Of a stretch of 64,000 bases of DNA, positions 3,625 to 56,538 are shown piece after piece (position 1 is the stretch's first letter; the number at the start of each line of letters is the position of its first letter). Position numbers and translations under genes: made by a program. The notes under the pieces are model-generated. The model saw only the letters and a list, made by a program, of their open reading frames with translations, was not told the DNA's origin and did not search any database. Source of the DNA: Bactericera cockerelli (taxonomy: Eukaryota > Arthropoda > Insecta > Hemiptera > Triozidae); assembly GCA_024516035.1 (NCBI GenBank), contig CM044962.1:5089034-5153033 (forward strand). Direction: 5' to 3'.

Positions 3625-3955
3625 AGCAGCACTGTGGCTAGACTAGACACCGATGCATGACCGTACCAGGTAAAAGAAAAAGAGTAAGCATACAAAATTT
3701 CAGCTCAATCGGTTCAGTAGAAATCGATTGGGAGTTTTCTGTCTGTCCCGGTAGCTCAGTGGTTAAGGCGGCACTCTGTGAATCCAGAGATTCCAGATGT
3801 CGTGGGTTCGAAACCCAGCCGGGACATGACAAGTTATCATCCCATATTGGATTTTTACCACATAATAATATGTCTTGGGCTTACTGCTGGAATATTGGGA
3901 CTTTAATAGTCCCAATCGGGCAGTAAAAATAAGTCGATATTATTATTATTAGTAC
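3625..3955 (+). mobile_element. tRNA-derived SINE (family A), most complete copy
   Basis: A tRNA-like head lies at 3745..3826: acceptor-like GTCCCGG pairs with CCGGGAC, an A-box-like 'tagctcagtgg' follows, and a B box (gggttcgaaac) sits near 3803. The body follows to 3955 and ends in (att)n. About 110 bp upstream (from 3630) is shared in inverted orientation with 35930..36036, so the mobile unit may be larger than the head plus tail. The 3' body and copy number argue against a functional tRNA gene. Confidence 0.75.
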
Positions 3956-8084: not shown

Positions 8085-8205
8085 CTGAAGCAATGTCTAG
8101 TTAAGTTAGGACTTGGAAAAAGGCCACTAAAATCCGAGCACTCGTGATGCTGGCTATTCCTGGCCCCACCCAGGCTGGGTGAGGTTGATATAGATAGCAG
8201 GTAAG
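8085..8205 (+). mobile_element. 5S-derived SINE, 3' body fragment
   Basis: 'gagcactcgtgatgctgg' and 'caggctgggtgaggttga' match the body that follows the 5S-like head of the SINE at 45678..45900. The 5S head is missing here, as in a 5'-truncated copy. Confidence 0.5.
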
Positions 8206-8287
8206 TAAGTTTCTCGATCTCTGAGGACTTTAAAAATGACATTAAGGAAACATAAAATGTATAAATCTAAAGACTTGATTTTGTTCT

Positions 8288-8497
8288 CTGATATTCATGT
8301 ACATCTAGGACAACTTCTCATTTTTCTATTTATACTGATTAAAATAGAGAAGTTTGTTGATGGCATGGATACTCAGAACTATTACCTGCTGATGAGAGCA
8401 AATAAGCTCGAAACAGCTGTCCAGGTATGTTCTGATATTCATGTACATCTAGTACAACTTCTCACTTTTCTGTTTATACTGATTATGATATACTAAG
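8288..8497 (+). repeat. Hammerhead-bearing retrozyme-like repeat, about 1.5 monomers
   Basis: The segment 'ctgatattcatgtacatcta' starts at 8288 and again at 8432, a period of 144 bp. The monomer between holds one complete hammerhead motif (8374..8434). The last partial monomer ends near 'tgtttatactgatta' at 8485. Similar monomers form the minus-strand array at 41081..41432 and fragments at 46861 and 61410. Roughly 145-bp tandem units with a type I hammerhead fit the known small metazoan retrozymes, non-autonomous elements that give rise to circular RNAs; membership is my inference. Confidence 0.75.
8374..8434 (+). ncRNA. Hammerhead ribozyme, type I, intact core
   Basis: This is a self-cleaving RNA motif. 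The conserved core CUGAUGA is at 8389..8395 and GAAA at 8410..8413. Stem II is GAGC (8396..8399) with GCUC (8406..8409) closing an AAAUAA loop. Stem I pairs 8384..8388 (ACCUG) with 8422..8426 (CAGGU) and, past a UAUU/AU internal loop, 8374..8379 (CAGAAC) with 8429..8434 (GUUCUG): 11 Watson-Crick pairs. Stem III is minimal (A8413-U8420, C8414-G8419). The predicted cleavage follows GUC at 8419..8421. Open stem I makes it type I. Very short stem III often means the motif cleaves best as a dimer, which fits tandem monomers. The pairing is seen directly; activity is inferred. Confidence 0.85.
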
Positions 8498-8735: not shown

Positions 8736-8850
8736 TATCTGCCCCTCTAAGGCATACTTCTCATCCAATCATATTAGAAGAGCTTCATTGTCGATGATTT
8801 CCCACGGTGTACATCAGTTTAGCGTAGACAGTATTATAATATGTTTGTGG

Positions 8851-9490
8851 AATGATGATTTTGATGCCATAGAAGACATTATAAACGAGAAAGAATATGG
8901 GAAGGCGTGTGTGTAAAGAAGAAGAAAACAAAACGAAGAAAGAAATAGGAAGAGGAAGATAGAGATGAAGGAGAAAGAGAAATGGAGATATTGTAGAATG
9001 ATGATGTTGATGACATGGAAGAAATAATAGCCGAGGAGGAATAAGGGAAGGCGTGTTTACAAAGAAGAAGAAAACAAAACATAGGAGGAAATGAGAGAAA
9101 GACAGAGAGGAAGGAGAAAGAGAAATGGAGATATTGTAGAATGATGATGTTGATGACATGGAAGAAATAATAGCCGAGAAGGAATAAGGGAAGGCGTGTG
9201 TACAAAGAAGAAGAAAACAAAACGAAGAAAGAAATAGGAAGAGGAAGAAAGAGAGGAAGGAGAAAGAGAAATTGAGATATTGTAGAATGATGATGTTGAT
9301 GACATAGAAAAAATAATAGACGAAAAAGAAAGATGAAAACAAAACATAGGAGGAAATGAGAGGAAGGACAAAGAGAAATGGAGATATTGTAGAATGGATG
9401 TTGATGACATAGAAAAAATAATAGAAAAAAACAAAACATAGGAGGAAATGAGAGGAAGACAGAGAGGAAAGAGTAAGAGAAAATGAGAGA
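8851..9490 (+). repeat. About 145-bp satellite, four to five copies, purine-rich
   Basis: 'aatgatgatgttgatgaca' variants recur at 8851, 8997, 9140, 9286 and 9393 (spacings 146, 143, 146, 107), each followed by GA-rich sequence with 'ggaaggcgtgtgtacaaag'. Long antisense ORFs across this array (Phe/Ser/Leu-rich) follow from the purine-rich composition and are not annotated as genes. Confidence 0.8.
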
Positions 9491-14708: not shown

Positions 14709-15113
14709 TTATTCTTTTTTGCATATAACTTTACTTTTTATTATGATGAAAAGGAGAATAACACTCATCAATAATAAGATGATTATAGTTGGAATGAACC
14801 AATTTCTTTCTCCTTCTTTTGAGTTATTTTCAATGGTTGTACATAATGTTTCCAAGGCAGACAGGAAATTAATGGAATAATTATTACCCATCAAGTACTC
14901 TGTGCAATTGAATACATTGGATGATGAAATTTCAGTACAATCATCGTAAGTTAACTTTAAATGTCTTGCTTTTGATTCCCAACTGTGCACATCATACTGA
15001 TCCAGGAAAGAAACATTTTGAAAAATCAAACATCTCCTGATCAAGTACATTCCGTACTCACGAGCTGCCAGCAGTAACTGGGTAGCAACATTACTATTCT
15101 CATGTTGAAACAT
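14709..15113 (-). CDS. Polinton-encoded single-pass membrane protein, unknown function
   Basis: A 134-residue protein starts at an ATG (15113) and reads towards the left TIR, opposite to its neighbours. Residues 1..105 are polar with Cys residues near 28, 58, 70 and 91 and several N-x-S/T sequons (for example NCT). Residues about 106..126 (WFIPTIIILLLMSVILLF...) form a strong hydrophobic membrane segment, followed by a short Lys-rich tail (KSKVICKKE). There is no obvious signal peptide, so topology is uncertain. I do not recognise the family. A membrane protein is unexpected in an element whose capsid genes resemble non-enveloped viruses. It could also be a fortuitous ORF. Confidence 0.55.
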   Translation of the reverse strand: MFQHENSNVATQLLLAAREYGMYLIRRCLIFQNVSFLDQYDVHSWESKARHLKLTYDDCTEISSSNVFNCTEYLMGNNYSINFLSALETLCTTIENNSKEGERNWFIPTIIILLLMSVILLFIIIKSKVICKKE

Positions 15114-15307
15114 GTTTTAAGGCCTAGTCGGTTTGTTTCACCAGTATTTATAGTGTTAATCCACCCGGTATTATATGATTAACCGTTACAACAGATAAGA
15201 TAAGAAAATCCAAGGTGACTTTGAATGTCTGAGCTTGGAAATCAGTTGAAAAGTTAGTGACCTCAAGTGCGGTTCGCGAATTTTAGTTCGTTTTTTTTAT
15301 ATCTATA

Positions 15308-15721
15308 ATGGTTTGTAAAATTGATGGATGCCAATGTCAAAAACAAGACATACCAATTCATTTGATGTATTGGCTAACCCACCATGGAATCGATATCCGT
15401 CCGCTCTTCCAGAAACCTTATATTGGTAAGAAAAAAAAACCCACCATCCCAACTAATAATGATCTAAATACCGTCAATGAAGCAACCTATAACTTTGTAC
15501 CAGTCGATAATGGAGGAAATGTTTTGGAAGAATTTTTATTCGAAATGCCAAACTTGGAGCAGGAGAGAGTTTTACAACCTCAAACTACAACAGCAACAAC
15601 AAGTAGTAACTTGGAGCAGGAGAGAGTTTTGCAACCTCAAACTACAACAGCAACAACAAGTAGTAGTAACGTCAAAAGAAGTGTCCCCTACAAAGTGCCC
15701 ACAAGGAGAGGATATAAATAG
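15308..15721 (+). CDS. Polinton protein of unknown function, upstream half of a possibly split ORF
   Basis: 137 residues from an ATG. The N-terminus has a Cys cluster (CKIDGCQCQ), and a Lys-rich segment (GKKKKPTIP) follows. Residues about 82..119 are two copies of a 19-residue repeat (NLEQERVLQPQTTTATTSS), encoded by a perfect-length 57-bp tandem duplication at 15551..15607 and 15608..15664. The TAG stop at 15719 is in the same frame as the next gene, with only nine sense codons before that gene's ATG, so the two may be one reading frame interrupted by a nonsense change. A T-rich, TATA-like stretch (tttttttatatc) lies just upstream. Function unknown. Confidence 0.6.
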   Translation: MVCKIDGCQCQKQDIPIHLMYWLTHHGIDIRPLFQKPYIGKKKKPTIPTNNDLNTVNEATYNFVPVDNGGNVLEEFLFEMPNLEQERVLQPQTTTATTSSNLEQERVLQPQTTTATTSSSNVKRSVPYKVPTRRGYK

Positions 15722-15748
15722 TTTGTATGCAGAATCAAACAATTAGTT

Positions 15749-17044
15749 ATGAAGAATCATCCGGTAAACTATTTTGGTGAGAGTGAGCTCCATCATGTCA
15801 TAAGACGAGCATTAAAAAGACATAACATTCAAGAACAACAACAACCTGAAGAGAAAAAAAAATCCAAAAATGAAATTGAAAGTCAAACTGAGAAGGAAGT
15901 AAAGAAATTTATGAGAGAATTTCCTCGTCAATCACATGTTCAGAAGTTGATATCTTACTTTGTTGAAAGAAAAACATTTGACAATTTATCACTTTACGTC
16001 AGTAAGAATAATTTTCTACCAATAGATGTGGCAAGTAAAACTTATTTGAAACAGAAAACCTTTTCCGAATACAAAACAATCAATGATAAAAATGTGAATG
16101 ACGTGAAATCAGCATTAGACGAAGTGAAACAAGACAGAAAACAGGATAATGAGATTTTTCAATCAACATTTACATTGAAAAAAACATTTGATGACTACAT
16201 TGTTGAGGCTGGAGTAAAAGAACAGAAGATCAATGTGGACCTTGCCAAGGTGAAAGAAGATCTTTCGAAACGGATACTGGAGTTGGATAATAAGTTTACG
16301 CCTCTTTTGGAACTAAAAAATACAGTAAATGCACATTATAAGCAATTTCATAGTTTGACTGACGCATTGAGAAAAGATCTGAATACTTTAGACAAAAAAG
16401 CTCTATACGCAACAACATTTTACAACTATAGAAAAAGTCATGAGTCTGATTTCAAGGATATTGTTAGTGCAAAAGAAAAAAGTTTGAAAACTGAAGTGAC
16501 TAAAATGATTAAATCATCGCTGTCAGTTCATGAAACAGAATTTAAAACAAAAGTTGATGAAGAGAAAGCAAAAATTCGAAGTGAACTATCGACTATGTTT
16601 ACTGAGAATTTCAATAATTTCCTTCTTCAAGAGTTGAATAAAAAGAAATTTTTACAACAGTTGCGAAATAATTTACTTACTAGAATCAATACTGAAAAAA
16701 TATTGTCAGCATTTCTTTCATGTTGGAGTGAAGGCGGTGAAATCACGGATGACATTTTAGAAAAAGTTATAACTCAACTTCGCAACGAAATAATGGAGAA
16801 AATGAATGTGGAAATAACCTCTATAAAAGAACAAATTAAGATCTCGAATGAGACAATTGAAAACTACATCAAGTTGAATATAGTTGAAGAGTTGGACAGT
16901 GGTATAGGTTTGAAAATTAAAAATCTCATTTTTGAACCTCTCTTGTATGAGAAATTGGAGCCTCTTGTAATATCAAAAACACCGAAAAAACCCATTGGTG
17001 AAGTTGAAGAAAAAGCGTCTATTCTTCCCACTCCAGTAGTATAA
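15749..17044 (+). CDS. Polinton long coiled-coil protein, unknown function
   Basis: 431 residues, rich in Lys, Glu, Asn and Leu, with no membrane segment. After a short N-terminal region (HHVIRRALKRHNI) the protein is predicted by eye to be mostly helical, with extended heptad-like spacing from about residue 100 to 370 (for example VNDVKSALDEVKQDRKQ). The C-terminus is Pro/Lys-rich (KTPKKPIGEVEEKASILPTP). It directly abuts the integrase: its TAA lies within 17042..17044 and the integrase ATG begins at 17044. Such rod-like proteins could be structural (fibre or scaffold) in a virus-like element, but nothing proves that here. The preceding ORF is in the same frame, separated by one stop. Confidence 0.7.
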   Translation: MKNHPVNYFGESELHHVIRRALKRHNIQEQQQPEEKKKSKNEIESQTEKEVKKFMREFPRQSHVQKLISYFVERKTFDNLSLYVSKNNFLPIDVASKTYLKQKTFSEYKTINDKNVNDVKSALDEVKQDRKQDNEIFQSTFTLKKTFDDYIVEAGVKEQKINVDLAKVKEDLSKRILELDNKFTPLLELKNTVNAHYKQFHSLTDALRKDLNTLDKKALYATTFYNYRKSHESDFKDIVSAKEKSLKTEVTKMIKSSLSVHETEFKTKVDEEKAKIRSELSTMFTENFNNFLLQELNKKKFLQQLRNNLLTRINTEKILSAFLSCWSEGGEITDDILEKVITQLRNEIMEKMNVEITSIKEQIKISNETIENYIKLNIVEELDSGIGLKIKNLIFEPLLYEKLEPLVISKTPKKPIGEVEEKASILPTPVV

Positions 17045-17990
17045 TGTCAAAACGTGATTTGGTTTTGGAGTTACATCGTCCGGCTAGAAAATTGTTTCCC
17101 CACCGGAGAACTCTACTTCGAAATATTCATGATCTTTACCAAGCTGATTTGGTGGAAATGATTCCTTATGCTAAAGAAAATAATGGATATAAATACATAC
17201 TTACCTGTATCAACTGTTTCTCCAAGGTTTCTTTTTGTGCACCATTGAAAAACAAAACAAGTGCTGAAGTTGCCAAACAGATGGAAAAGTATGTTCTAGA
17301 AAAGCTTAAACCCGCTATGATCCCAACCCACTTGCAAACGGATGCTGGCAAAGAATTTTTTGGTCGTCCATTCCGTGAACTAATGCAAAAATACAACATT
17401 AATCACTACGCTACATTTTCCCCATGAAAGCTGCCATTGTAGAGCGTTTTAATCGAACGTTGAAAAGCAAAATGTGGATTGAATTCAATTACCTTGGCTC
17501 GTACAGATGGTTGGACATTTTGCCAACTCTTGTGTCTACCTACAATGCCACCAAGCATCGTTCTATTGGAATGGCCCCTCAAGATGTGAACGTGAAAAAT
17601 CAGAGTCTCATAGCTTTACGTTTGAATAAACCCAAACAAGTTATAGCCAATAGTAAGACTAGTAAATTTAAACTAGGTGATCTTGTACGTATTTCCAAAG
17701 TGAAACATTTGTTTCAAAAAGGTTACGAAGCCAACTGGAGTTATGAGGTATTTAGAGTGGTCAAGGTGGGCAGTACTTTTCCCAGGGTATATCACCTAGA
17801 AGATTTACATGGGAAACCAATATCTGGTGGTTTCTACGAACAAGAGCTACTCAAAACCTCATACCCAGATGTATATCTTGTAGAAAAGGTTCTCCAACGT
17901 AAAGGCAATAAGGTTTTGGTAAAATATTTAGGCTTTGGTCCAGAGGAAAATCAATGGATTCCCACCACCTCTCTTCTACTGCAGAATTAG
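17044..17990 (+). pseudogene. Polinton integrase (retroviral-type DDE) with C-terminal chromodomain, frameshifted
   Basis: The enzyme catalyses insertion of the element's ends into target DNA. Two ORFs, 17044..17427 and 17424..17990, overlap by ATGA and lie in different frames; together they cover one integrase. The catalytic triad is visible: Asp in LYQADLVEM (about residue 34), Asp in LQTDAGKEFF (about residue 100), and Glu in AIVERFNRTLK at the start of the second ORF. Then come the YNATKHRSIG motif and an SH3-like tail (FKLGDLVRISK), ending in a chromodomain-like module (VEKVLQRKGNKVLVKYLGF..EENQW), which in other families targets chromatin. The break sits at TTTTCCCC (17416..17423) and needs a one-base change. 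No canonical slippery heptamer is seen, so damage or a sequencing error is likelier than programmed shifting. Confidence 0.9.
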
Positions 17991-18225
17991 GAGGAGAAAA
18001 AAATGAAAATGAAAACAGAAATATTATATGTAGTTAATTGTAACTTAATTTTAAATTTTTCTATATTGTTATTATTATGAAAATACACATATATGTACAA
18101 AAAAGTTTGAGTGATAAAATACATGTTTTTATTTATTTATCTAAACATAATAGAAATAGGCATGAGAAATCAGAAAATATACATTTATAACTGGGTATGG
18201 AAAAAAACAAATAAGAGAGAAAACA

Positions 18226-18921
18226 TTAATTTACAGTGTCGTATCCACTATCATTACAAATATATTTCTTAAAATAAGGGTTCTGTACAATATGAGGCGC
18301 TAGTCGGTAGGAATTATTTTCCAAAGTATCTTGACCAAGAGCGTAAATGAAAAAATTTACAGGTAAAAAGTATAAATCTCTCGGTCTCAACAAGAAGAAA
18401 CCATATTCTTGAAATTTTCCAATCGCTTCATTGGACAAGGTTAATGTATTTTTCAATAATTCGCTGAACCAATGTTTCATGGCGATTACATTTATACTTG
18501 ATACTGGAGGAAGAGGGTTTTGCAGAGACAAGTTAACTTTCAATAATTTCAAGTTGGGACAATCTAAATTTTCAATGTTGTAGCATAATTTTCTGGACAA
18601 AATAGAATTCAAATATTTTTCTTTTTCTAGACCCTTGACAATGACTTCGGTTGCGTTACACAAAGATGATCGAATAATATTCACTGCTTGATCATAATCA
18701 ATGAAACCATCATCCCAATTCAAATGATGATAATTTAGCGTAACATTAGCAGCTTCTCGTCTACGGAGTAAATTTAACTTGGTAAATTCATAGGGTGGTT
18801 TGAACACAAAATGTTGCACAAAGTCATTATCAAAAAGTTTACTGAATGAAAAACTCTTCACAATAACTTCTTTTTCATTGCCACGAAAAAACTGAATGTC
18901 AGCGATAAATGTATTTTCCAT
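18226..18921 (-). CDS. Conserved Polinton-associated protein, possible RNase H-like fold
   Basis: 231 residues from an ATG. The N-terminus (FIADIQFFRGN...VIVKSFSF) looks like the first beta strands of an RNase H-like nuclease, with the Asp after a hydrophobic strand. A second motif, VIVKGLEKEKYL (about residue 93), precedes CPNLKLL, and a third, AMKHWFSELL, lies near residue 148. I recall proteins with this motif order near Polintons and in arthropod repeat annotations, always uncharacterised; the nuclease idea is an inference from pattern only. It sits just downstream of PolB on the same strand, so a role with replication is plausible. No frame damage. Confidence 0.6.
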   Translation of the reverse strand: MENTFIADIQFFRGNEKEVIVKSFSFSKLFDNDFVQHFVFKPPYEFTKLNLLRRREAANVTLNYHHLNWDDGFIDYDQAVNIIRSSLCNATEVIVKGLEKEKYLNSILSRKLCYNIENLDCPNLKLLKVNLSLQNPLPPVSSINVIAMKHWFSELLKNTLTLSNEAIGKFQEYGFFLLRPRDLYFLPVNFFIYALGQDTLENNSYRLAPHIVQNPYFKKYICNDSGYDTVN

Positions 18922-19064
18922 ATTTATTTAAAAAGAATAAAATTACTTTAGCGATATATTTGATGTCACTTGTTGGAGTGATAAACTAGTAATAGATATG
19001 AAAATACATGGGAGCATTGTTTTTATACTTAACTTAAATCAAAGTAAAAAAAAATAATATACAT

Positions 19065-20579
19065 TTATTCCAAATCCATTTCTGAAGACTCGTTCTGGAG
19101 GCTATAGTGACCAAACGGTAGGGTGTTAATTTTATCAGTCATCAGAACACGTTTATCATCATAATTATTCAGAACAAGTTTGTTCTGCTTAATCGTTGAT
19201 AGACAGTGATTTTTTGAAACTATGTTGTGAAAAGATTTGTAAAGTTGTATGTTTTCACGCATACACCTTTCAAAATCTTCAAACTTAATTTCACGCTCTG
19301 TGACATGTTTCTTAACACCCTTAGCCTTCTTTACAACTTTTCCCTCGTGAACTTGATACGAATAAAGTTTACTCGCAATGCCCACAAATTTTTTCAAAAT
19401 TTTACCATCCAATTCATCTTTGAACTTTCCGAGTACCTTTTTATTTTGAATTGAAAATAATCGGTGATTCGCCGGGTATGCACTTGTATCTAAATGTTCG
19501 GAAAGGCTCGAAAAGTCCTCGTATAAATCGTTTGTAAAAATTTGATAAAAAAATGAATCAGTGTCCATGTAGAGTAACCTTACATTCTCAGGATTGAATT
19601 TGGGTTGTACAATATCGTAATGAAATTGGTACATCAAGGTCTTACTGAGGTCGAGGACGCAAACCCCTGCAAAGATTGCTTTGTTAAATCGGATTTGCGT
19701 CTTCTTCATTGTAAAGAGAACGAGATTTTCTTTCAATATTTTAAAATCTTCGAAAAATGGACTTGAAATACGTTTTCTGGATAGCCTCCATTCTGTTTCT
19801 AACCGTACATTAATCCTTTTACGCACACCTTCGATTAATTTCCCGTAGAGGGCGTTGTTGGCCAATTTGAAGAAATCTTTGGCGAAATCATTGGTTGCAT
19901 TTTTTCGATGCTCTGTATTCAGATTAATGTACGGAGCTAAATAGTTGCTTTGAGTGAATTTTATTCCTCTATGAATTTTTACAAGTTTCAGGCCATGCTC
20001 AAGAGCCTGTTTCAGGGTTAAATAATGAACAACGTAATTATTTTTATTCTCCAAAGTGGTGAGCAGTTTGTGAGCATTGGACGATGGAGATTTCTTACTC
20101 TCACAGAGGAAAGGTAAATTCGAGTGTAGATCATGCAATTCCTTGGGATATTCCACATCTACCTCGAAATAATAACCTACATCATCTTGTGGAGTAAGAT
20201 CTAGAACGGTAATGTTATCAATTTCTTGTGGACTCAACCACTTGAAATCTTTCAAAGGAAGTTTCTGAATCATGCTGTAGCCATAGAGGTTATTGGCATC
20301 TAAATAGGTGAGATAGGAGGATTTCTCAGTTGAAATGAAATCGCTTCCCATATATTTATTGTTTGCCTCGGCGTACTTTTGAATACATTGGCAAATACCA
20401 CCCCTAACCGCTTGTTCAAAAAACAGGTACATGTCATAGTCCAACAAAAGTTCTATTTCAACTTCTGTTTTCTTAAGCATTGCGTCCATTGTAAGACCAG
20501 GCAGGGAGTAGTACCACACAGGATCTAAGCTGTATATATCGAGGGACAGAGTTCGGAATGATTCGAAAATATCTGCCAA
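19065..20579 (-). pseudogene. Protein-primed DNA polymerase B, polymerase (palm/fingers/thumb) part
   Basis: This is the C-terminal 504 codons of the element's replicative polymerase. Motif A is YLDANNLYGYSM (about residue 90), motif B KLANNALYGKL (about 237) and motif C YMDTDSFFY (about 338). The two Asp of motif C and the Asp of motif A are the metal ligands. A LysxTyr-type region (KKFVGIASKLYSY) follows. The first codon at 20579 is TTG, not ATG, and conserved coding continues upstream in this frame to about 20591. This is therefore an internal piece of PolB, out of frame with the exonuclease part by one base near 20580..20595. In these elements the polymerase starts synthesis from a protein bound to the DNA end. 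Confidence 0.9.
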
Positions 20580-20589
20580 CAGAAGAACG

Positions 20590-21645
20590 TCAGTTTTCAG
20601 ATAAAATTTCCGAATATTCTTTCAAGTTTAAACACTTGAAATGTGTCCATACTTTCTGAGCATGATCATAATCTTCCTGAGTTACCGAACTATTTGTTAG
20701 AGAGGAATAAAATTCATCAAGAGGCGGCAGCTTATTATCTAACAGTTTACTATAACTATCGAGATATTCGTAACAAAAAATTCCTTTCCTAGTCAATAAT
20801 TCGAAATCAATATCGGACTGAATATGTTTCCTTGTGTGTATGAATTTTTCTTTGGGTAGTGTTTTACTCAATTTGTCAAGACTGCTCGACAAAAACCGAA
20901 ATGAATCAATGAATCGAACACTGAGATTGTCGCTAACTTTTTTTGAAAAGGAAACATATTTTTCCATTGAATTTGGAATTATATCGATTTTTTGACCGTC
21001 ATAATTCAAACCATTTATGATTAAATGACTGTCGTAGCCTGAGAAGTTGTGTGCTACGACAGGAACAAATTTTTCGTTTCTAAATTTCAAGTTGCATTTA
21101 TTGCAAAGGACCTTTCGAAGTCTTCCATCACCATAGTGGTAATGGTCCCTTACTTTCTTCAATGTATCTGAAAAAGGTCTTTTGCAATGTTCACACTCGG
21201 TGGTTTCATTGAAACGTCGCCAATCATCGGGTGAAAGGTTGAGTGGAACTTGCTCTTTGTAAAACTCATCAATTTTTTTCACATCTTCAATCAACATCTT
21301 GAAAAATATTTCAACAACATCCTCATTTTCATCTTTAGCCGTGTATGTAACCAACTTGTTTGTATTGGGTCCAATCACATAGTAGGAAAAAGAAAAAGGA
21401 ATATGTTGTTGGGTGGTCAAAGTGTATGAATCAATTGATGAGGGTTCACATGAGCTAACTTTTTTCAAAATGCACTCGAAATCTGTGTAAATAATAAAAG
21501 GAATTTTTTGTTCAAACTGAAAATGTTCAAACTTTAAAATGTTTTTACCCGGTTCCGGCATAATGGCAACACAAGGAGTTTGTTTACCGCATAGATTTCT
21601 ATGCTCCACCAATCTCGCCTCATTTCCGAATGCGGTAAAACACAT
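20590..21645 (-). pseudogene. Protein-primed DNA polymerase B, 3'-5' exonuclease part
   Basis: 351 codons carry the proofreading domain. ExoI is FIIYTDFECIL (about residue 53, Asp and Glu), ExoII VAHNFSGYDSHLI (about 198) and ExoIII-like FIDSFRFLSSSLDKL (about 243). A zinc-binding insert lies between ExoI and ExoII (CEHCKRPF ... CNKCN, about 152..186). The Met at 21645 is probably internal: Cys/His coding (a zinc-finger-like start) continues upstream, and the link to the N-terminal part is broken in an A14 run (21671..21684). The 3' end at 20590 stops a few codons short of the polymerase-part frame. Confidence 0.88.
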
Positions 21646-21646
21646 T

Positions 21647-23129
21647 TTACAGAAAAACCGGGTTACATAGTTTTTTTTTTTTTTCTTTATAGTGAAATCT
21701 GGTTATAAAACCGTTGAAATTTTTTATGAGGGAATAATGATGCAAGCCTTTTTCATCACATGTTAATATTAAATCAACATGGATTGGCTTCTCCTCTTTG
21801 CAAACTTTCAGAATGAAAACATTCTTTTTCTTTTCTTCTTCTTCAGCACCAAGAACATTGATGGACATGAAGGAATTATTTTTTTCAAAACAAGTTACTT
21901 GCTTTAAACTTGTATTAGCAAGTATACCGTCAAAATTTAAAGTTTGAACATTTTCAATAGCGAGCTGAATACATTTCTTAAAACTATCAAGTCCATGCTC
22001 AAAGGTATGCAAATGTTTACTTCTCCGTAGAAATAATGGAACACTGTCGAGAGTGAAAGGTAATCTATCCGCGATTTGCTGTCCATCACATTGATGCTCA
22101 TGAAAATGTTTTTCAATGAGAAAAATGGATAGACAGATTTTGCAGACAAAAAATTTAATTCGACTTTTATTTTCCAATGTTGCTGGTAGCGTATGACGCA
22201 TTAATTCATTGAAATTATTTATATATGTAAAGTGTGAAACGTCACCATTTCTAAGCAAAAGTAAATCATTCGAACTGTGGACATTATCAACTCTGGAAAT
22301 GCGAAACGGTTGGATCACTTTGTTTCTATCGACTACGTAAACATTTACTGCTACACCCGGATTGTTACCTTCGAAAATATCGAGCTCGTCAATTTTAACT
22401 GGCCACGATAATCCCGACCAATTGTATTTACTGTCAAGATCTCTATAGTTTTCCTTATATCTACGTTTTTTCCAATCGGAAATAAACTTTACCAACATTG
22501 AATATTTAAAGCAATAGTTGTCGTTGATTTTGACATTAAATACAGTTTGTCGTTTTTTCTGAAGAAAATCCGGAGTCTCAATAAAGGTTCCACAGCGAAT
22601 TGGTTGGTATTTGAGGAAAGAAAGCTGAACTCCTCCGATGGATTCCATTGTCCAACCGCTTCCTTTCAATTCGAAATCAAGCATTTCCGACAGTAAACTC
22701 TGTACAGCCTCCTGCCATACATTATGAAAGTCTACACTTTCACACACTATTAGGTTTTTTGTTTTGAACAAAGCAAGTTTAATTTCGTCTTTTTTGGTGA
22801 TTTGTTTGAAAAAAAACAAATAATCGAGCCGAAAATTTAAAACTTTGATAATTTCTCAAAATCTCATCCTTCAACTCCATTATTTTGTCTTTCACAAACT
22901 CTTGAAGAAATTGATTTGTGTCTTTGTAAATAACATTTTTGACAAAATATGTTCTAATGTTATTTGAAAAGGCAGACTCTAGTAATGTAACATTGTCAGG
23001 GTAGCTGTTGAAAATGTTTCTTTGATGCCGTACAGAGTTAAAATGTTCCTTCCTTTGAGCATCACTTGTAAAACTATAATGTTCATTACATATATTACAC
23101 AGGGCTATGCGTACTCTGGGAATATCCAT
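21647..23129 (-). pseudogene. Protein-primed DNA polymerase B, N-terminal part, frameshifted
   Basis: Two overlapping frames make the N-terminal extension. The first (23129..22779, true ATG) opens with a C2H2-like finger (CNICNEHYSF...HFNSVRH, residues 11..33). The second (22819..21647, starting only at a TTG) continues with about 390 codons, including a Cys/His cluster (CKICLSIFL..KHFHEHQC, about 245). The switch falls at a T8 run on the coding strand (22809..22816). In Polintons the long N-terminal region precedes the exonuclease and may include the terminal-protein function, but I see no definite priming residue. With the other two pieces the gene spans about 4.07 kb and roughly 1,350 codons. 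Confidence 0.75.
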
Positions 23130-23330
23130 ATTGAACCTTAAGAAAATAAAAAAAGAAGGTAAAGAATGACAGTAGAGAGAAAAAGATTCTTTTTATTAAA
23201 AAATAATATCAATACCAATAAAATTAACTAATGAGTTATATTAAACAATATTAATGATATTATTATTTACACTCAATCTTAAATCTGTCCAACATTCCAA
23301 TTATATTCTTTCCAAATGTATATATTCAAT

Positions 23331-23726
23331 TTAGGAAAGTTCAATTTTTTTTATTTGATTTGAAAATATATATTTTTTAAATAAATTGGATGAATTATGT
23401 GACAAAATATGTTTAATTGTCTCAACATATTTTTCCCGAACATTGTCACAATATACTATTCCATGCCCTTCAAGTGTAATTATTATTATAATATCCATTA
23501 ATTTATTTTGTATTTCATGAATTAATGTTTTTGGTATATCAAATTCAAGAATATTCTGCACAATTTTTAAAAACAAAGCATCTTTTTTTTCTGTTGTCTT
23601 AGTTTTATATTTCAAATTTTCATAAAAACGTAATTCCCTATCAATTATTTCTATGATTAATTCAATATTATTTTTTAAATATATAAAACAAATTTCACAT
23701 AGAATGATGTTTCTCAAGGAATCCAT
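23331..23726 (-). CDS. Small Polinton protein, unknown function
   Basis: 131 residues from the ATG at 23726 (the frame is open further upstream through an A/T-rich run, but only from a TTG and with a low-complexity Phe stretch, so I chose the internal ATG). The protein is rich in Ile, Lys and Glu, mostly helical in appearance, with a hydrophobic centre (LMDIIIIITLEGHGIVYC). It follows 23835..24350 on the same strand and has similar size and composition, hinting at paralogous small genes. Not recognised. Confidence 0.5.
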   Translation of the reverse strand: MDSLRNIILCEICFIYLKNNIELIIEIIDRELRFYENLKYKTKTTEKKDALFLKIVQNILEFDIPKTLIHEIQNKLMDIIIIITLEGHGIVYCDNVREKYVETIKHILSHNSSNLFKKYIFSNQIKKIELS

Positions 23727-23834
23727 TTGTAAAAATAATTGATGAATTGAGTGGATATTGATAAAAAAGAAACAAAAAAAAAAAAAAGAAAAAATCAATA
23801 GGTAAAGAAACAGTATGTAAATTTTTCAACTCTT

Positions 23835-24350
23835 TCAATGTTTTTTTGAATACATGTTGACTAATTCAATTTCGTCTCTTTCAAGTTCCTCCATTATATC
23901 ACACATGATATCATCACAATCTTTTGGAAAATACTGTGCATGTGTTGTAACACAATTAAACATTGTTATATTTTCACTAATATGAGGTATAAGAGATTCT
24001 GCAAAAGAATATATTCTCATATGTTGACAAGGCTCACCTTGAACACATTTTGGACTATATTCTAGAACAAATTCCAGCACATAACGCTCAATATTTACTA
24101 TATCATTATAAAAAAATTTAAAAATATCTTCTTGTATATTTAGAGGTACTTGAAATTGTTTAATTGTTTCTGTAATCTTATTTTTATAACCTTTTTCGGT
24201 CATAAATGTATCTATTACAGAGTAAAAATGTCGATCTGCATGTTTTTCATGCACATCCTCAAAAATTAAATAAAAAAGGTCTTCATGTTGTTGAAAGAGT
24301 TGATGACTTATACTGTTTAATGATAATGAATATAAAGATTGTATATACAT
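23835..24350 (-). CDS. Small Polinton protein, unknown function
   Basis: 171 residues from an ATG. It is acidic and mixed helical, with Cys residues in KCVQGEPCQHMR (about residues 100..111) and in CDDIMCDIMEEL near the C-terminus. No membrane segment or known motif is visible. It lies between PolB and the capsid block, a position where Polintons often carry lineage-specific genes. Confidence 0.55.
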   Translation of the reverse strand: MYIQSLYSLSLNSISHQLFQQHEDLFYLIFEDVHEKHADRHFYSVIDTFMTEKGYKNKITETIKQFQVPLNIQEDIFKFFYNDIVNIERYVLEFVLEYSPKCVQGEPCQHMRIYSFAESLIPHISENITMFNCVTTHAQYFPKDCDDIMCDIMEELERDEIELVNMYSKKH

Positions 24351-24454
24351 TTAAAAAAAAAAATCTATAACATACCATTAAATAAAGAATATTTGAGTGC
24401 GTGCTGAAGATATTGAATGGTGGACACGATACAACAATCACTTCCTATTGTTGA

Positions 24455-24721
24455 TTAGTTTCTCTTCTTCAGCAGATTGGTTAACTCTTCTTCTTCCCGA
24501 CAATTCAAGTTTGGCCAGGTAACCTTGATGATTTCGAAATCTCCCTCTGCTTCTTCTAACTTTTCCTTGATTTTTATCTGTCCAATTTTATAATTAGGTT
24601 TAAAAACTATTTTGTCTTCTTCAAATTTAATGTCTTTATCACTTACGTTAAACTTTTTCTTGATTAATAATTCTAATAGTCTTTTATTATTTAACACCTT
24701 CAATATAATTATAGAACTCAT
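24455..24721 (-). CDS. Very small Polinton protein, unknown function
   Basis: 88 residues from the ATG at 24721 (an in-frame TTG two codons upstream is ignored). It is Lys/Glu/Leu-rich with alternating charged and hydrophobic residues (IIILKVLNNKRLLELLIKKK ... EEEELTNLLKKRN), soluble and probably helical. Not recognised. Its upstream region (24722..25215) holds the 32-bp tandem repeats. Confidence 0.45.
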   Translation of the reverse strand: MSSIIILKVLNNKRLLELLIKKKFNVSDKDIKFEEDKIVFKPNYKIGQIKIKEKLEEAEGDFEIIKVTWPNLNCREEEELTNLLKKRN

Positions 24722-24990
24722 ATTCAAAATAAAAAAACACTTTTTTTTTCGGATAATGTTCCTTTATAATTATTTACACATTTCACATAAAATAATAAGA
24801 ACAAAATAATATTAATAAATGGTTGGTTTAATTATACACACACACACACACTGAATGTTTCACAAACTTAATTTTTTTTAGTTGAATATTTTTCTACTTG
24901 TAGGGTAATATTACTGACTATGTGTTTGAATGAATAACATTATTGTCAAGTCCAGCTTTATATATGATTGCCTTATCTGCCTCTGCGTCT

Positions 24991-25118
24991 GATATCAAGC
25001 AATGTGAGCTTGCAGACAACGTGATATCGGGCAATGTGAGCTTGCAGACAACGTGATATCGGGCAATGTGAGCTTACAGACAACGTGATATCGGGCAATG
25101 TGCTCTTGCTAGCCACGT
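24991..25118. repeat. 32-bp tandem repeat inside the Polinton, four units
   Basis: 'gatatc' starts units at 24991, 25023, 25055 and 25087, with the shared core 'gggcaatgtgagctt' and 'gcagacaacgtgatatc' across junctions. The repeats sit in the only sizeable gap between genes (24722..25215), upstream of the small gene at 24455 and downstream of the hexon gene. A (CA)n tract lies at 24836..24851. Confidence 0.85.
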
Positions 25119-25166
25119 GATATAATTGAACAACCTCTCAAGTTTATCTCAAGTGTATTTTCTTCT

Positions 25167-25187
25167 GACTAGTAAACATATACAGGG
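25167..25187. repeat. Internal copy of a TIR motif
   Basis: A 21-base stretch beginning 'gactagtaaacatatac' matches the inner TIR motif (minus strand near 30605..30628; similar on the plus strand near 14195). It lies beside the 32-bp repeats and outside any gene. Confidence 0.6.
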
Positions 25188-25215
25188 GGGTGTATTAGTT
25201 AACAAAAAAAAAAAT

Positions 25216-26442
25216 CTACATTATTTTCTGGATTGTATTGGTTAGTGGATAAAGTCTTACAACTGCATCATGTATTATTAGAGCGTACAGGGTTGTTTTT
25301 TCAGTAACATTTGCAGCTAATTCGTATTCAATGCGAATATCTACTGTAGAGCTGTGTTTCCATAGTTCGGACTGTTTTGAACAATCAATAACCACAATGG
25401 GGGCTTTTGCTAAATAATCTTTATAACTAAGATACGGTTCACTGATTTTTCGATAGTAATTCTCTTGGAAATCACAATACATTAGATAAAGAGGAATGTA
25501 CTTCTTCTGTTCAAAGTCAATATTTAAAGACTCGTAGGGGAAACAAACAGAGTTGAGATAGACTTTTATATTCTTAAGCTTTACATGGTCAAACATAGAT
25601 GGATCCTTTGTCAAGCTGTTGTCCCGGTCTGTTTGGAACCCTAAAAGTATAAATCTAGGTTTGTCTTGCGCATTACTTGTCTTTACTGTCCAGTTGATCT
25701 CTTTACTTGCTGGTAAATTCGGATAGTAATTCAAACTCCATTTTCTAAAGCTCATGTCAATCGGAATGTTTCTCTTGTACTGAGAGAGCAGCTCCAGACG
25801 TATGGGATCGCTGACTTGAACATGTGGTACCTTCCATACTACTTTTGTGAGTTGAACTTTTGCATCTGTTACAGCAGCGGTACCCGTAGATAATAGAGCA
25901 TCCTTGGAACTCTTGGATCGCATTAAAATCAAGTCCAGACGTTGATTGAGCAGAATTTTATCATAGTTTTCAGCGAAACCCAATAGATATTTCAGTTTGA
26001 GATATCCACTAAAGGAATAACTTGTTGTAATTTCAACTGACTGTCCTGATGTCTCATATTTTTTCATTTCATCGCTTGAGTATGATGGATATGCTTTTAG
26101 AGTGGATGTGATGCCAACATTTTTATTAGAATCGATTTCAACACTATTCATTTCCAAGCGAATCTCATCAAACAGGAAGCACAGTCCATTGTTTACAAAC
26201 TGAATGGATTTATTAGCCTCCAGATTGGTTCCATCTTCTTTTACGATTTTTCCTTCAATGTAGATTCCCGATTCACTTAGCAGCAGATATGAGCTTTCCT
26301 GGTTAATACTGATGATGATATTGTCTGTACTGTCCAAGCTGATACTTGTGTACGGTCCATACGTATGACTTTCATAACGAATTATATTTTCATCGTAAGT
26401 CACACGATTGTTCAAATTCAAAATATTGTCTTCAATGTTCAT
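25216..26442 (-). CDS. Polinton/adintovirus major capsid protein (hexon-like, double jelly-roll)
   Basis: 408 residues from an ATG. The protein is beta-rich throughout. A conserved-looking segment, FDEIRLEMNSVEID, followed by NVGITSTLKAY (about residues 92..118), resembles the hallmark region of Polinton major capsid proteins, in which two stacked jelly-roll folds form trimers that build the icosahedral shell. A later block (VWKVPHVQVSDPIRLELL, about 207) and a C-terminal strand series (RIEYELAANV...TLYALIIHD) also fit. It is last in the leftward capsid block (PLA2/core, protease, penton, hexon). The frame is intact. Assignment rests on remembered family pattern and gene order; a structure comparison would settle it. 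Confidence 0.82.
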   Translation of the reverse strand: MNIEDNILNLNNRVTYDENIIRYESHTYGPYTSISLDSTDNIIISINQESSYLLLSESGIYIEGKIVKEDGTNLEANKSIQFVNNGLCFLFDEIRLEMNSVEIDSNKNVGITSTLKAYPSYSSDEMKKYETSGQSVEITTSYSFSGYLKLKYLLGFAENYDKILLNQRLDLILMRSKSSKDALLSTGTAAVTDAKVQLTKVVWKVPHVQVSDPIRLELLSQYKRNIPIDMSFRKWSLNYYPNLPASKEINWTVKTSNAQDKPRFILLGFQTDRDNSLTKDPSMFDHVKLKNIKVYLNSVCFPYESLNIDFEQKKYIPLYLMYCDFQENYYRKISEPYLSYKDYLAKAPIVVIDCSKQSELWKHSSTVDIRIEYELAANVTEKTTLYALIIHDAVVRLYPLTNTIQKIM

Positions 26443-26611
26443 TTTTGTTTCACACTATAGCCTAAGCTTTGTAGAATTTTTACACTCCTTTTGGTAAGTT
26501 TCTTTAGTTTTATTTTTTTTTTATTACTTTTCACTTGTATAACACTTGTTGGAATGATCTTAAGGAGAGTGGGCACACTCTTTTTATTGCTTTTCACACG
26601 TTTCATCACAA

Positions 26612-27292
26612 TCATATTTTCAAATGTAATTCTAACGATATCTCTTCACCTCGAAAGTCTATTAAATTATGTCTTTCGTCAACAAGCTTCACAATCAATC
26701 TGTCAATTTCATCTGTATTGAGTGGTAAATATATAACATTGTTGGGAACTTCTGTGATCCGGAAACCAGGTGGTACATTCAGGAAATATTTATACAAACA
26801 ATTATTGGACACACCGTCTTGATAGGAACCATTGACTATGTTTACGTCAATTTTTATTGTATTTATTTTGGAAATTTTCAAAGTATTTGTTGAGGTCAGC
26901 ATAGTGTGTGCAATGTATATTTCTTTAGGGAGTCCAAGCATATCGGCAAGTGATCGCTCCTTGAAATCAACATTATACTTGCACCAAAATAAACATTTCA
27001 GAGTGTTTACATTGGGTTTAATAGATATCACATTTTCACCCAACTTGGATTTCAAGTAACTTTCAATATCCAATAGTTCGTACGTTCCTTCTTCTATTTC
27101 AATGTCAATCCAATCTTTACTATCGTCCTGATATCTGAAAACATTGTTTGTCCGATCAATGTTTGGAATACTATTGTAGGTTTGAAATTGTGTCAAACCA
27201 ATAACAGCATCTGTTGAAACTTTTAAAGGAGGAAATATTGAACACACAATTTCAGATTGTCTAGAAGTTATATGAAAAATTCTGCTGGACAT
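26612..27292 (-). CDS. Polinton/adintovirus minor capsid protein (penton-like)
   Basis: 226 residues from an ATG. This beta-rich protein has the look of the single jelly-roll vertex protein: an N-terminal IFHITSRQS strand, IEEGTYELLDIESYLKSKL (about 66..84), where a small sheet leads into an alpha helix, and a C-terminal VDERHNLIDFRGEEISLELHLK. The C-terminal pattern is typical of Polinton minor capsid proteins. It lies 12 bp downstream of the protease stop and upstream of the hexon gene on the same strand. The frame is intact. Confidence 0.85.
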   Translation of the reverse strand: MSSRIFHITSRQSEIVCSIFPPLKVSTDAVIGLTQFQTYNSIPNIDRTNNVFRYQDDSKDWIDIEIEEGTYELLDIESYLKSKLGENVISIKPNVNTLKCLFWCKYNVDFKERSLADMLGLPKEIYIAHTMLTSTNTLKISKINTIKIDVNIVNGSYQDGVSNNCLYKYFLNVPPGFRITEVPNNVIYLPLNTDEIDRLIVKLVDERHNLIDFRGEEISLELHLKI

Positions 27293-27304
27293 GTTTTTTT
27301 TTAT

Positions 27305-27676
27305 TTATTTGTTAAATAATTCAATAGTTTTCTGAACAATATATTTCAAACACAAGTGTCCACAATTAACTGATCTGTATTTCTGTTCTCGCTCATAGTT
27401 ATAGAAAATTTTACACCCATTAAGGTATACTCTTATTTCTACAGGTGGACGCAAGTTGCCAAAACTATCATAATAAAAGGCAGAGTTATTTTTCTTCAAC
27501 ATGGCTACCCAATGAGTGCCGGGTCCACTTGATTTGTCAAGATTAATAATCATCACTTCATTTGTTCTTGGTTTTGACGGGAGTTGATTCAAACTGTAGA
27601 TGCCTCGAAAATGTGGAACATTGATTTCACGAATCTTTTTCAAAATATCAATGTTTGTCAACGCTCTCCGAGGCAA
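27305..27676 (-). CDS. Adenain-like cysteine protease (capsid maturation), start unclear
   Basis: About 123 residues. The catalytic triad pattern of the adenovirus-type maturation protease is visible: His in GPGTHWVAM (about residue 55), Asp in YYDSFGN (about 70), and Cys in SVNCGHLCLKY (about 105). The enzyme cleaves virion precursor proteins. The listed first codon (27676) is TTG. The frame stays open to about 27700 without an ATG, while an ATG at 27681, directly after the stop of the PLA2/core gene (TAAATG), is in a different frame and soon terminates. Either one base has been lost or gained between 27681 and 27676, or translation starts in another way. It is the second gene of the leftward virion block. 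Confidence 0.85.
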   Translation of the reverse strand: MPRRALTNIDILKKIREINVPHFRGIYSLNQLPSKPRTNEVMIINLDKSSGPGTHWVAMLKKNNSAFYYDSFGNLRPPVEIRVYLNGCKIFYNYEREQKYRSVNCGHLCLKYIVQKTIELFNK

Positions 27677-27681
27677 ATCAT

Positions 27682-28410
27682 TTAGTTTTTTGACAAGACA
27701 TTAAAATAGTTTGAGTATGGTTTTATGTACAACCCCTGTCCACTTTTAATAGGAGTAACAGCACCCGAAGAACCAGCAGCCTTGAAATCTGCGATTGCTT
27801 TTGCAATACCACTAACACCGCCAGCAATGGATCCGAGGGCACTTAAACCAGCAAGTATGGGGATAGCAGCCGGCAAGAATCCACCTGACATTGTCTTGGC
27901 TATTCTGAGTCTTCTCGGAATTTTCTTGTTTACTTTATTCCCCCGGATAGCTTTACGTGCAGCCATCAGAGCGTGTTTACTAATCAACTTGAGATTATCA
28001 CTTTCTCCAGCAGATTTCATTCCTAGCGCAGCAGCTTTAGTTAGTTTTCGAAAAGTCATTGTTGTCTTCTTTTTGCGACGTAGACCAGCGCCCATTTTTC
28101 TTTTAACTTTCATAGCGTTAGTCACGAACAAGGCAGCAGCTTTTTCCGGCAAGTTTGAATCTCTGGCCAACACTCTCTGCCAAGCTTTGTTTTCCAATTC
28201 CCAATCTGCTTGCTTACGATCGGCTTTCTTGTCAGCGTATTTGAGATCGTGTTCTTTACAGGCCGAATCCAACGAATTAATACCTTCTTGATCTTTTCTT
28301 TTATCCAATCTTGTTCCTGGACCACAGAATCTGTACGACGGAATGTGAAGTTCAAATGGTAACTTATCAATCAACTTATTTAAGAGACCTTTTCCACGTC
28401 TGCGAATCAT
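27682..28410 (-). CDS. Virion protein: parvovirus-type phospholipase A2 domain fused to adenovirus core (pX-like) tail
   Basis: 242 residues from the ATG at 28410. Residues about 20..70 hold a phospholipase A2 signature: a Ca2+ loop-like YRFCGPGTRLD and the catalytic SACKEHDLKYAD (His-Asp pair), as in the N-terminal PLA2 of parvovirus capsid proteins, which helps virions leave endosomes. A very basic middle (RKMGAGLRRKKK, KKIPRRLRIAK) suits DNA binding. The sequence MSGGF at about residue 174 fits the adenain cleavage rule (M/L/I-x-G-G before the cut). A hydrophobic segment (FLPAAIPILAGLSALG) resembling the C-terminus of adenovirus core protein pX follows. It is the first gene of the leftward virion block, with the protease immediately downstream. 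Confidence 0.85.
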   Translation of the reverse strand: MIRRRGKGLLNKLIDKLPFELHIPSYRFCGPGTRLDKRKDQEGINSLDSACKEHDLKYADKKADRKQADWELENKAWQRVLARDSNLPEKAAALFVTNAMKVKRKMGAGLRRKKKTTMTFRKLTKAAALGMKSAGESDNLKLISKHALMAARKAIRGNKVNKKIPRRLRIAKTMSGGFLPAAIPILAGLSALGSIAGGVSGIAKAIADFKAAGSSGAVTPIKSGQGLYIKPYSNYFNVLSKN

Positions 28411-28416
28411 TAACAA

Positions 28417-28484
28417 TAAAGTGATTGTTGTGAAAACATTGGTTTATATAGGAAAACAAAGAAAGAAAAAAAAAATCAGAAATC
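28417..28484. promoter_or_regulatory. Bidirectional intergenic promoter region
   Basis: The 68 to 74 bp between the PLA2/core ATG (minus) and the ATPase ATG (plus) must serve both directions. It contains a TATA-like TTTATATA at 28443..28450, which can be read on either strand. There is no direct evidence of a transcription start. Confidence 0.45.
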
Positions 28485-29174
28485 ATGAAAACAAAAAAAT
28501 GTAAAGAAAATTTAAATGTTGAAAATTTTGACTTTGTCAGCGAAGTGAAATCAAAAAATAAAAAAAATGGAAATTTTTTTCCAAACAATGTACGAGCCTT
28601 AATTGTCGGTCCAAGCGGATCGGGTAAGACCAATCTTCTGCTGGCTCTCTTGTTACATCCAAACGGATTGCGCTTTGAAAACGTTTATGTGTACTCAAAA
28701 TCATTTCAACAACCAAAATATCAATTTTTAGAAAAAATTTTGAATGGAATCAAAGAGGTGCAACTCAAAGTATTTACAAACGACGAAGATATGATTCAAC
28801 CGTGTGAAACAAAGAAAAATACTGTTTTTGTAATGGACGACATTGCTTTTGAGAAACAAAAAAATATTAAACAATTTTTTTCCCAAGGTAGACATTTCCT
28901 CGTTGACATCATTCTTCTAGCGCAAACTTATTCAGCTATTGGTAAACAATTGATTCGAGATAATGCAAACTTTCTATGTATTTTTCAACAAGATCCCCTC
29001 AACTTGAAACATATTTATTCCGATCATGTTTCTGATTTGTCTTTTGAAAAGTTTAAAGAGATGTGTCAGTATTGTTGGAAATCGAAACATGGATTTCTCG
29101 TATTGGATAAAGAATCCGACAGCAAGTCTGGGCGGTTTCGATGTGGCTTGGATAAATACTTCATAGATATATAA
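28485..29174 (+). CDS. Genome-packaging ATPase (FtsK/HerA, A32-like)
   Basis: 229 residues from an ATG. Walker A is GPSGSGKTN (about residue 44), Walker B VFVMDDIAF (about 115), and a sensor-like LLAQTYSAIGKQLIRDNANFL stretch (about 145) ends in the Asn/Arg pattern of the A32-like group. The protein pumps DNA into preformed capsids in related viruses. The N-terminal 35 residues are Lys/Asn-rich. It is divergent from the PLA2/core gene and is followed after 32 bp by 29207..30553 on the same strand. The frame is intact. Confidence 0.92.
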   Translation: MKTKKCKENLNVENFDFVSEVKSKNKKNGNFFPNNVRALIVGPSGSGKTNLLLALLLHPNGLRFENVYVYSKSFQQPKYQFLEKILNGIKEVQLKVFTNDEDMIQPCETKKNTVFVMDDIAFEKQKNIKQFFSQGRHFLVDIILLAQTYSAIGKQLIRDNANFLCIFQQDPLNLKHIYSDHVSDLSFEKFKEMCQYCWKSKHGFLVLDKESDSKSGRFRCGLDKYFIDI

Positions 29175-29206
29175 GACAATGATTGCAAATGTAGAACTTA
29201 TTAGAC

Positions 29207-34888: not shown

Positions 34889-35107
34889 TGGTACACTGGT
34901 AGTCAAGTGGTTAACGCGCTAGTCTGGTAATCCAGGTAGCGTAGGGGTCCGTTGGTTCGAATCCCACCCAGTGCATGAACTTTTCCTCAGTAATTTAATT
35001 TGAGCAACCACATAATAATGAGACTCTGAGGGTTAGGTGGTAGAAAATGTTTTGAGCATTAACCTCGCCTGGAGGTTGCCTTCTACTAAAGAGTGTTATT
35101 ATTATTG
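34889..35107 (+). mobile_element. tRNA-derived SINE (family G)
   Basis: A tRNA-like head has CACTGG...CCAGTG acceptor pairing, 'tagtcaagtggttaacgcgc' (A box) and 'gttggttcgaatcccacc' (B box). The body follows and ends in (att)n at 35090..35107. Confidence 0.65.
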
Positions 35108-35763: not shown

Positions 35764-36036
35764 AATAATAATATCACTCTATTTATATTGCCCGATTAGA
35801 CTGTTAAAATTCCATTGGGAGGATAACTGGTCATGTCCCGGCTGGGTTTCGAACCCACGACCTCTGGAATCTTTGGATTCACAGAGAGCCGCCTTAACCA
35901 CTGAGCTACCGGGACCAGATAACTCCCAATCGATTTCTACTGAACCGATTGAGCTGAAATTTTGTATGCTTACTCATTTTCTTTTACCTGGTACGGTCAT
36001 GCATCGGTGACTAGTCTACCGGGACAGACAATAATA
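35764..36036 (-). mobile_element. tRNA-derived SINE (family A)
   Basis: A minus-strand copy with 'gctgggtttcgaacccacga' (B box) and 'ccactgagctaccgggac' (A box and acceptor). The flank 35930..36020 matches 3630..3744 in inverted orientation. Confidence 0.72.
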
Positions 36037-37078: not shown

Positions 37079-37290
37079 ATAATAATAATATCGCCTTATT
37101 TATACTGTCCGATTAAGACTATCAAAGTCCCATTATTCCAGCAGTAAGCCCAAGACATATTATTATGTGGTAAAAATCCCAAATGGGAGGATAACTTGTC
37201 ATGTCCCGGCTGGGTTTCGAACCCACGACATCTGGATTCTCTGGATTCGCAGAGTGCCGCCTTTACCACTGAGCTACCGGGACAGACGAT
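37079..37290 (-). mobile_element. tRNA-derived SINE (family A), near full length
   Basis: It starts with (aat)n and 'tatcgccttatttata', has the body 'gtaagcccaagacatatt', then the B box 'gctgggtttcgaacccac' and A box 'ccactgagctaccggg'. It is very close to the copies at 3745 and 63165. Confidence 0.75.
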
Positions 37291-41127: not shown

Positions 41128-41188
41128 CAGAACATATCTGGACAGCTTTTTCGAGCTTATTCGCTCTCATCAGCAGGTAATAGTTCTG
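41128..41188 (-). ncRNA. Hammerhead ribozyme, type I, weakened copy
   Basis: On the minus strand the core CUGAUGA...GAAA is intact and stem II GAGC/GCUC closes a GAAUAA loop. Stem I keeps the outer CAGAAC/GUUCUG helix, but the inner helix has one C-A mismatch. Stem III has lost its second pair (GAAAA instead of GAAAC). Activity is probably reduced. Confidence 0.7.
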
Positions 41189-41274
41189 AATATCCATGCC
41201 ATCAACTAACCTCTCTATTTTAATAATCAGTATAAACAGAAAAGTGAGAAGTTGTACTAGATGTACATGAATAT

Positions 41275-41335
41275 CAGAGCATACCTGGACAGCTGTTTCG
41301 AGCTTATTTGCTCTCATCAGTAGGTAATTGTTCTC
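41275..41335 (-). ncRNA. Hammerhead ribozyme, type I, partly weakened copy
   Basis: On the minus strand the core CUGAUGA, stem II GAGC-AAAUAA-GCUC and GAAAC...GUC are intact. Stem I has mismatches next to the core (A where G is expected) and in the outer helix (two of six positions). Confidence 0.7.
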
Positions 41336-41737: not shown

Positions 41738-41744
41738 AGTTTGG

Positions 41745-46915: not shown

Positions 46916-46984
46916 TTATTTTTACATCTACGATCCCTTGAGTTATCTTTTCTGAATGGCAACCTGTCAACGACTTCAGTTGAA

Positions 46985-54255: not shown

Positions 54256-54294
<39 letters not shown>

Positions 54295-56504: not shown

Positions 56505-56538
<34 letters not shown>

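Follow-up and report, generated by a model that had tools for sequence, protein, structure and literature searches.

Introduction

Tandem repeats that carry type I hammerhead ribozymes yield circular RNAs in coral, mussel and axolotl (PMC7229834). As defined in passages of the same paper (Cervera & de la Pena 2020), metazoan non-LTR retrozymes measure 150-450 bp in the genome and ∼ 170-400 nt as RNA, have a GC content below 45-50%, occur as dimers upward and have optional target site duplications (TSDs), longer than 4 bp when present. The axolotl ribozyme HHR_Amex1 has a weak stem III with a palindromic tetraloop and acts as a dimer (PMC7229834). Whether LINEs or Penelope-like elements (PLEs) move retrozymes is left open in these passages and in those of two reviews (PMC7761336, PMC11722881); one review proposes that retrozymes are reduced PLEs (PMC7761336, PMC11722881). 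In Poseidon, a PLE of the anole, reverse transcription starts in a stem loop 111-118 nt into the ORF, and the hammerhead cut lies at 26 nt (PMC11167929). In the experiments that its text describes, hammerhead mutants inserted unchanged and the cut was neither the first nor the last position of any read, evidence against a role of the cut in fixing 5' ends in that element. Among insects, the satellite pDo500 of Dolichopoda (PMC2837043) also has a hammerhead in a tandem repeat, and is by name a different repeat from the one described below.

Here we describe a hammerhead repeat in a 64-kb stretch of Bactericera cockerelli DNA (the window). Like the metazoan non-LTR retrozymes in the passages of PMC7229834, it combines a type I hammerhead with short, low-GC tandem repeats and no coding genes; its predicted circle is rod-like, and its stem III is weak with a palindromic tetraloop, as in HHR_Amex1. 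Its arrays have 1.4 and 2.4 units. It differs from them in its unit of 144-147 bp, just under the printed ranges, in the lack of a TSD (optional there) and in having a shared insertion end that lies 61 nt beyond the cut. In layout alone it is also like Poseidon of Anolis (Frangieh et al. 2024, PMC11167929), which has the hammerhead at the ORF start, 3' ends at a downstream stem loop and tandem copies. By our own arithmetic the distance from cut to insertion end is 85-92 nt in Poseidon versus 61 nt here, and Poseidon encodes a reverse transcriptase (RT) and a GIY-YIG endonuclease, while the 19 of 51 ORFs scanned here showed no PLE gene.

Results

A type I hammerhead in a small repeat unit

Judged from its sequence, copy A (Table 1) is a real type I hammerhead, with three stems around the conserved CUGANGA...GAAA...UH core and stem I open. 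Each of the 18 base pairs that this fold calls for is a standard one in copy A. The core reads CTGATGA from 8389 (CUGAUGA in RNA) and GAAA from 8410. Stem I comprises 12 bp, arranged as seven outer pairs (TCAGAAC 8373-8379 with GTTCTGA 8429-8435) and five inner pairs (ACCTG 8384-8388 with CAGGT 8422-8426) around a TATT/AT internal loop; this loop and loop II (AAATAA, in RNA AAAUAA), which closes the 4 bp of stem II, are at the places expected for a loop-loop contact. Stem III has two pairs (A-U and C-G) capped by the palindromic tetraloop AGCU, and self-cleavage is predicted at GTC↓C. The original prediction had called a type I hammerhead with these core positions, a UAUU/AU internal loop in stem I, a GUC cleavage site and a two-pair stem III, all of which is borne out; it had given stem I 11 bp, one fewer than we count.

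Table 1. Hammerheads, repeat units and insertions in the window.
Feature	Position	Strand	Remarks
Hammerhead copy A, complete type I	8373-8435	+	predicted cut between 8421 and 8422
Array A, probable retrozyme insertion, ∼ 1.4 units	8283-8485	+	unit similarity begins ∼ 8283-8287, ends 8482
One complete 144-bp unit	8339-8482	+	GC 0.361; starts just past one TATACTGA and includes the following one
61-nt tail, predicted cut to common insertion end	8422-8482	+	predicted to fold back as the far half of the rod
Array B, ∼ 2.4 units (144 and 147 bp)	41080-41434	-	begins GTC↓CAGG, ends TTTATACTGA
Hammerhead Bi	41270-41337	-	core intact (41296-41320), 4 stem I mismatches
Hammerhead Bii	41123-41190	-	CUGAUGA core present (41149-41173), stem III C-G lost, 2 stem I mismatches
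Solo tail C, 56 nt	46861-46916	-	starts ∼ 6 nt past the cut position, ends TTTATACCGA; nhmmer E 9.5e-10
Solo tail D, 5'-truncated	61411-61447	+	ends TTTATACTGA(T); blastn E 4.6e-7, nhmmer E 6e-4
Solo tail E, marginal	40273-40311	-	blastn E 7e-5, nhmmer E 0.11

The pattern CTGATGAG-N4-16-CGAAA, which represents the core together with stem II, has three matches in the window, where 0.01 would be expected by chance. With a strict descriptor of the full motif, copy A is the single match, and 20 dinucleotide shuffles give none (both strands). Its relaxed form finds three cores in the window versus 0-2 per shuffle and is for that reason weak as proof when taken alone. The original prediction had proposed a search with the Rfam hammerhead models. 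The best covariance-model matches are RF02275 (Hammerhead_HH9) and RF00163 (Hammerhead_1): copy A scores 33.4 bits with the former (E 2e-6, gathering 52; local scan of 901 bases), and array B scores 29.7 bits with the latter (gathering 34) and 25.5 bits with HH9. The models do match, but every score lies below its gathering threshold, and a scan of the whole 64-kb window returned no Rfam hammerhead family at gathering score. Searches of two mainly non-animal collections gave no exact match to the hammerhead pattern (viral_contigs and genome_contigs) or to the tail pattern (viral_contigs).

Two arrays and three short pieces

The original prediction had placed the hammerhead in a tandem repeat with a monomer of ∼ 145 bp. 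The period holds, at 144 bp (147 in one copy), but the locus in question comprises only 1.4 units and one hammerhead. A second array (B), which had been overlooked, is 91-94% like array A. The three full units measure 144, 144 and 147 bp and have a GC content of 0.34-0.36. Together with three short pieces (E being marginal), the arrays make five retrozyme-related insertions within 64 kb, in both orientations. As controls, the reversed window gave no nhmmer match to the unit, and of 200 shuffled units one had a blastn match at E ≤ 1e-3 and none at E ≤ 1e-4. One additional nhmmer match (8467-8312, minus, E 0.004) reflects the likeness of the unit to its own complement, as a rod-like fold would lead one to expect.

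Array A is adjoined by a purine-rich tandem array with a 146-bp period (8845-9482) that has no sequence match to the retrozyme; the resemblance of the two periods is a coincidence. Further satellite arrays lie at 41743-42332 (34-bp period) and 43483-44550 (26-bp period).

Predicted folding of the circle and the dimer

A circular A monomer of 144 nt was built by joining the tail (8422-8482) to 8339-8421. Its predicted folding energy is -42.8 kcal/mol, versus -23.3 (sd 3.6) for 200 shuffles (z -5.4). The predicted circle is a rod, with the hammerhead at one end and stem I running on into the long rod, at whose opposite turn the shared insertion end is located. Bi and Bii give similar circular folds (the z value refers to A only). 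Counted from the cut, the bases that close the far hairpin are 53-60 (A), 55-59 (Bi) and 54-68 (Bii), and the insertion end follows base 61.

For the A hammerhead alone a misfold is predicted in which the core pairs with the stem III palindrome (-24.2 vs -16.6 kcal/mol for the hammerhead fold, a preference of 7.6 kcal/mol in a calculation that leaves out tertiary contacts). For two A copies the predicted structure is a double hammerhead in which the palindrome ACAGCUGU makes an 8-bp stem III, at -52.3 kcal/mol versus -48.4 for two misfolded monomers (2 x -24.2), so that the dimeric cleavage thought likely in the original prediction gains support in silico. Since array A has a single hammerhead, it cannot itself release a circle, and, with both B copies damaged, the two arrays seem at present incapable of producing circles.

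Insertion ends

Four of the five insertions (A, B, C and D) have the same unit base at their 3' end, TTTATAC(T/C)GA (TTTATACTGA). The original prediction had made no mention of this point, which sits 61 nt beyond the cut site and not at the cut. Past it, A agrees with the unit for three more bases (TTA, after 8482) and D for one. The alignment of the marginal piece E extends ∼ 11 model positions past the common end, and E therefore cannot be clearly assigned to it. Relative to the cut, in model coordinates, the 5' starts are at -4 in B, +6 in C, +9 in A, +21 in D and +33 in E; three of the five thus lie within 9 nt of the cut, for which a post hoc hand calculation gives a chance of ∼ 0.016 if starts were uniform. 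Counted in units, the arrays come to ∼ n + 0.42 (n being 1 or 2), while C comes to ∼ 0.4.

No TSD above controls was found at any of the five insertions. The flanks of array A share an 8-mer, 25 nt and 19 nt from the junctions, which we rejected as a TSD since at least 3% of random pairs equal it.

An endless reading frame

The length of 144 nt is divisible by three, and the reading frame set by the AUG within CUGAUGA is stop-free in 3/3 units and hence endless in a circle. We rejected a coding role for this frame because it shows no constraint (synonymous/nonsynonymous changes 3/6, 1/7 and 3/8; expected synonymous share 0.22). A protein search with the array frame left one of 1325 candidates at E ≤ 1, a weak match (P0001, lgn; E 0.12) that has 20/30 residues alike over the hammerhead-to-tail part and stops within two codons of the common end.

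Other elements in the window

A non-LTR LINE (54234-58891) has RVT_1 in two overlapping ORFs. It has 388 relatives; among the best 16, 11 are named, all from Diaphorina citri, at ∼ 46-58% identity, which would make the source of the window probably an arthropod and perhaps a hemipteran. At 14709-30553 lies a Polinton/Maverick-like cluster with an integrase core (PF00665), an A32-like ATPase (PF04665), a double jelly-roll capsid (PF21738) and a phospholipase A2-like domain (PF08398); an ORF of 518 aa at 19065-20621 has by eye the look of a protein-primed polymerase and matches nothing in Pfam or NCBIfam.

A 5S-rRNA-like element (RF00001, 40.9 bits) and two related stretches, at 45674-45868 (+), 61208-61361 (-) and 8088-8182 (-), are probably a 5S-derived SINE. 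Four weak matches to the tRNA model (3745-3826, 34893-34975, 35834-35915 and 37202-37283) are probably the heads of tRNA-derived SINEs. Tail D was rejected as part of the 5S-like element that adjoins it, which is on the opposite strand, and the tail was rejected as a SINE 3' end, since a gap of 86 nt separates tail C from the end of the SINE homology (47265-47002).

Discussion

We consider the element to be probably a non-autonomous, non-LTR metazoan retrozyme of a known kind, slightly smaller than the published ones; this reading rests on three full units and five insertions. The likeness to metazoan retrozymes proposed in the original prediction stands, in the type I hammerhead, the small tandem units, the low GC (0.34-0.36), the dispersal of copies (five places in 64 kb, one of them marginal) and a circle that is, by prediction, highly self-paired (z -5.4 for A). 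Against it speak the missing TSD, the seeming inactivity of both arrays, the monomer misfold, the end of piece E, the sub-gathering Rfam scores and the absence of a PLE gene from the 19 of 51 ORFs scanned.

In such a cycle, tandem copies would be transcribed, paired type I hammerheads would act as a double hammerhead to cleave the transcript at GUC↓C, and 144-nt monomers with 5'-OH and 2',3'-cyclic phosphate ends would be released, which a host RNA ligase would close into rod-shaped circles. A borrowed RT, whose likeliest donor would be a PLE, would then start at the fixed rod turn UAUACUGA, 61 nt downstream of the cut, copy its way around the circle (or follow a multimer) and halt at or before the hammerhead-cut 5' end. 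This would leave insertions that measure n + 0.42 units, or smaller ones truncated on the 5' side.

The new element here is the anatomy of the junctions. The insertion end adjoins the turn of the rod opposite the hammerhead. If the copies are retro-insertions, reverse transcription therefore began at or next to that turn. By analogy this resembles the internal start of reverse transcription downstream of the hammerhead in PLEs, whose trait of internal 3' ends is seen in four of the five insertions, and it therefore fits the unproven idea that PLE-type machinery moves animal retrozymes. PLE-type internal initiation is possible, and we put it forward tentatively; the Poseidon results on hammerhead mutants and on RNA ends (PMC11167929) count against it. 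Our searches of the open-access literature turned up no study in which the insertion ends of retrozymes are mapped to a site of this kind, which is not proof of absence.

Might the units instead be what is left of a PLE, namely the pseudo-LTR together with the opening ∼ 90 nt of the ORF, in tandem after coding loss and with no independent life? The AUG within CUGAUGA does open a frame through the tail in 3/3 units, and passages of PMC11167929 describe a PLE in which the ORF starts at the hammerhead and insertions end early in the ORF, and tandem and partial-tandem copies as usual for PLEs. We nevertheless regard such a remnant as unlikely. That frame has no coding signal, and an X-padded peptide of it, compared with proteins of ∼ 390-1140 aa, found nothing. 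PLEs carry an ORF for an RT and mostly also for a GIY-YIG endonuclease; no PLE gene and, besides the LINE, no RT or GIY-YIG match appeared in the 19 ORFs scanned of the 51 in the window of at least 120 aa. Moreover, stem I with its internal loop is of the canonical type and not the minimal PLE type that passages of the reviews describe.

A SINE-like element moved by a LINE that recognizes a shared 3' tail would account for a fixed 3' end with variable 5' truncation, a LINE-style pattern; LINE mobilization is an open option in the text of PMC7229834, and the window has a LINE at 54.2-58.9 kb. With blastn, however, the unit does not match this LINE, and the homology of neighbouring SINEs ends before the tail pieces. 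There is neither a TSD nor a simple 3' repeat, and the tandem units would go unexplained; we consider this origin quite improbable. Ordinary satellite DNA spread by unequal crossing-over, with the hammerhead incidental or a relic, has very little to recommend it: decay of both array B hammerheads and the abundance of other satellites in the window are set against a 3' end that four insertions share, the presence of single-unit and solo pieces on either strand at five places, and a significant rod fold (z -5.4).

If the element is a retrozyme, its 144-nt unit lies at the lower edge of the known self-cleaving genomic circles. More speculatively, and we think this rather unlikely, the insertion junctions may record the copying cycle itself, with a PLE-like start at the rod turn, run-off at the hammerhead 5' end and n + 0.42 units as the result; animal retrozymes would then be reduced PLEs moved by that machinery, the hammerhead fixing one insertion end. 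Which enzyme moves animal retrozymes, LINE or PLE, is an open question in the literature as passages of PMC7229834, PMC7761336 and PMC11722881 present it. With a fixed end at the far rod turn and 5' ends near the cut, genome-wide mapping of insertion ends offers a simple test, and the pattern of insertion seen here gives a hint of how such small ribozyme elements may spread in animal genomes.
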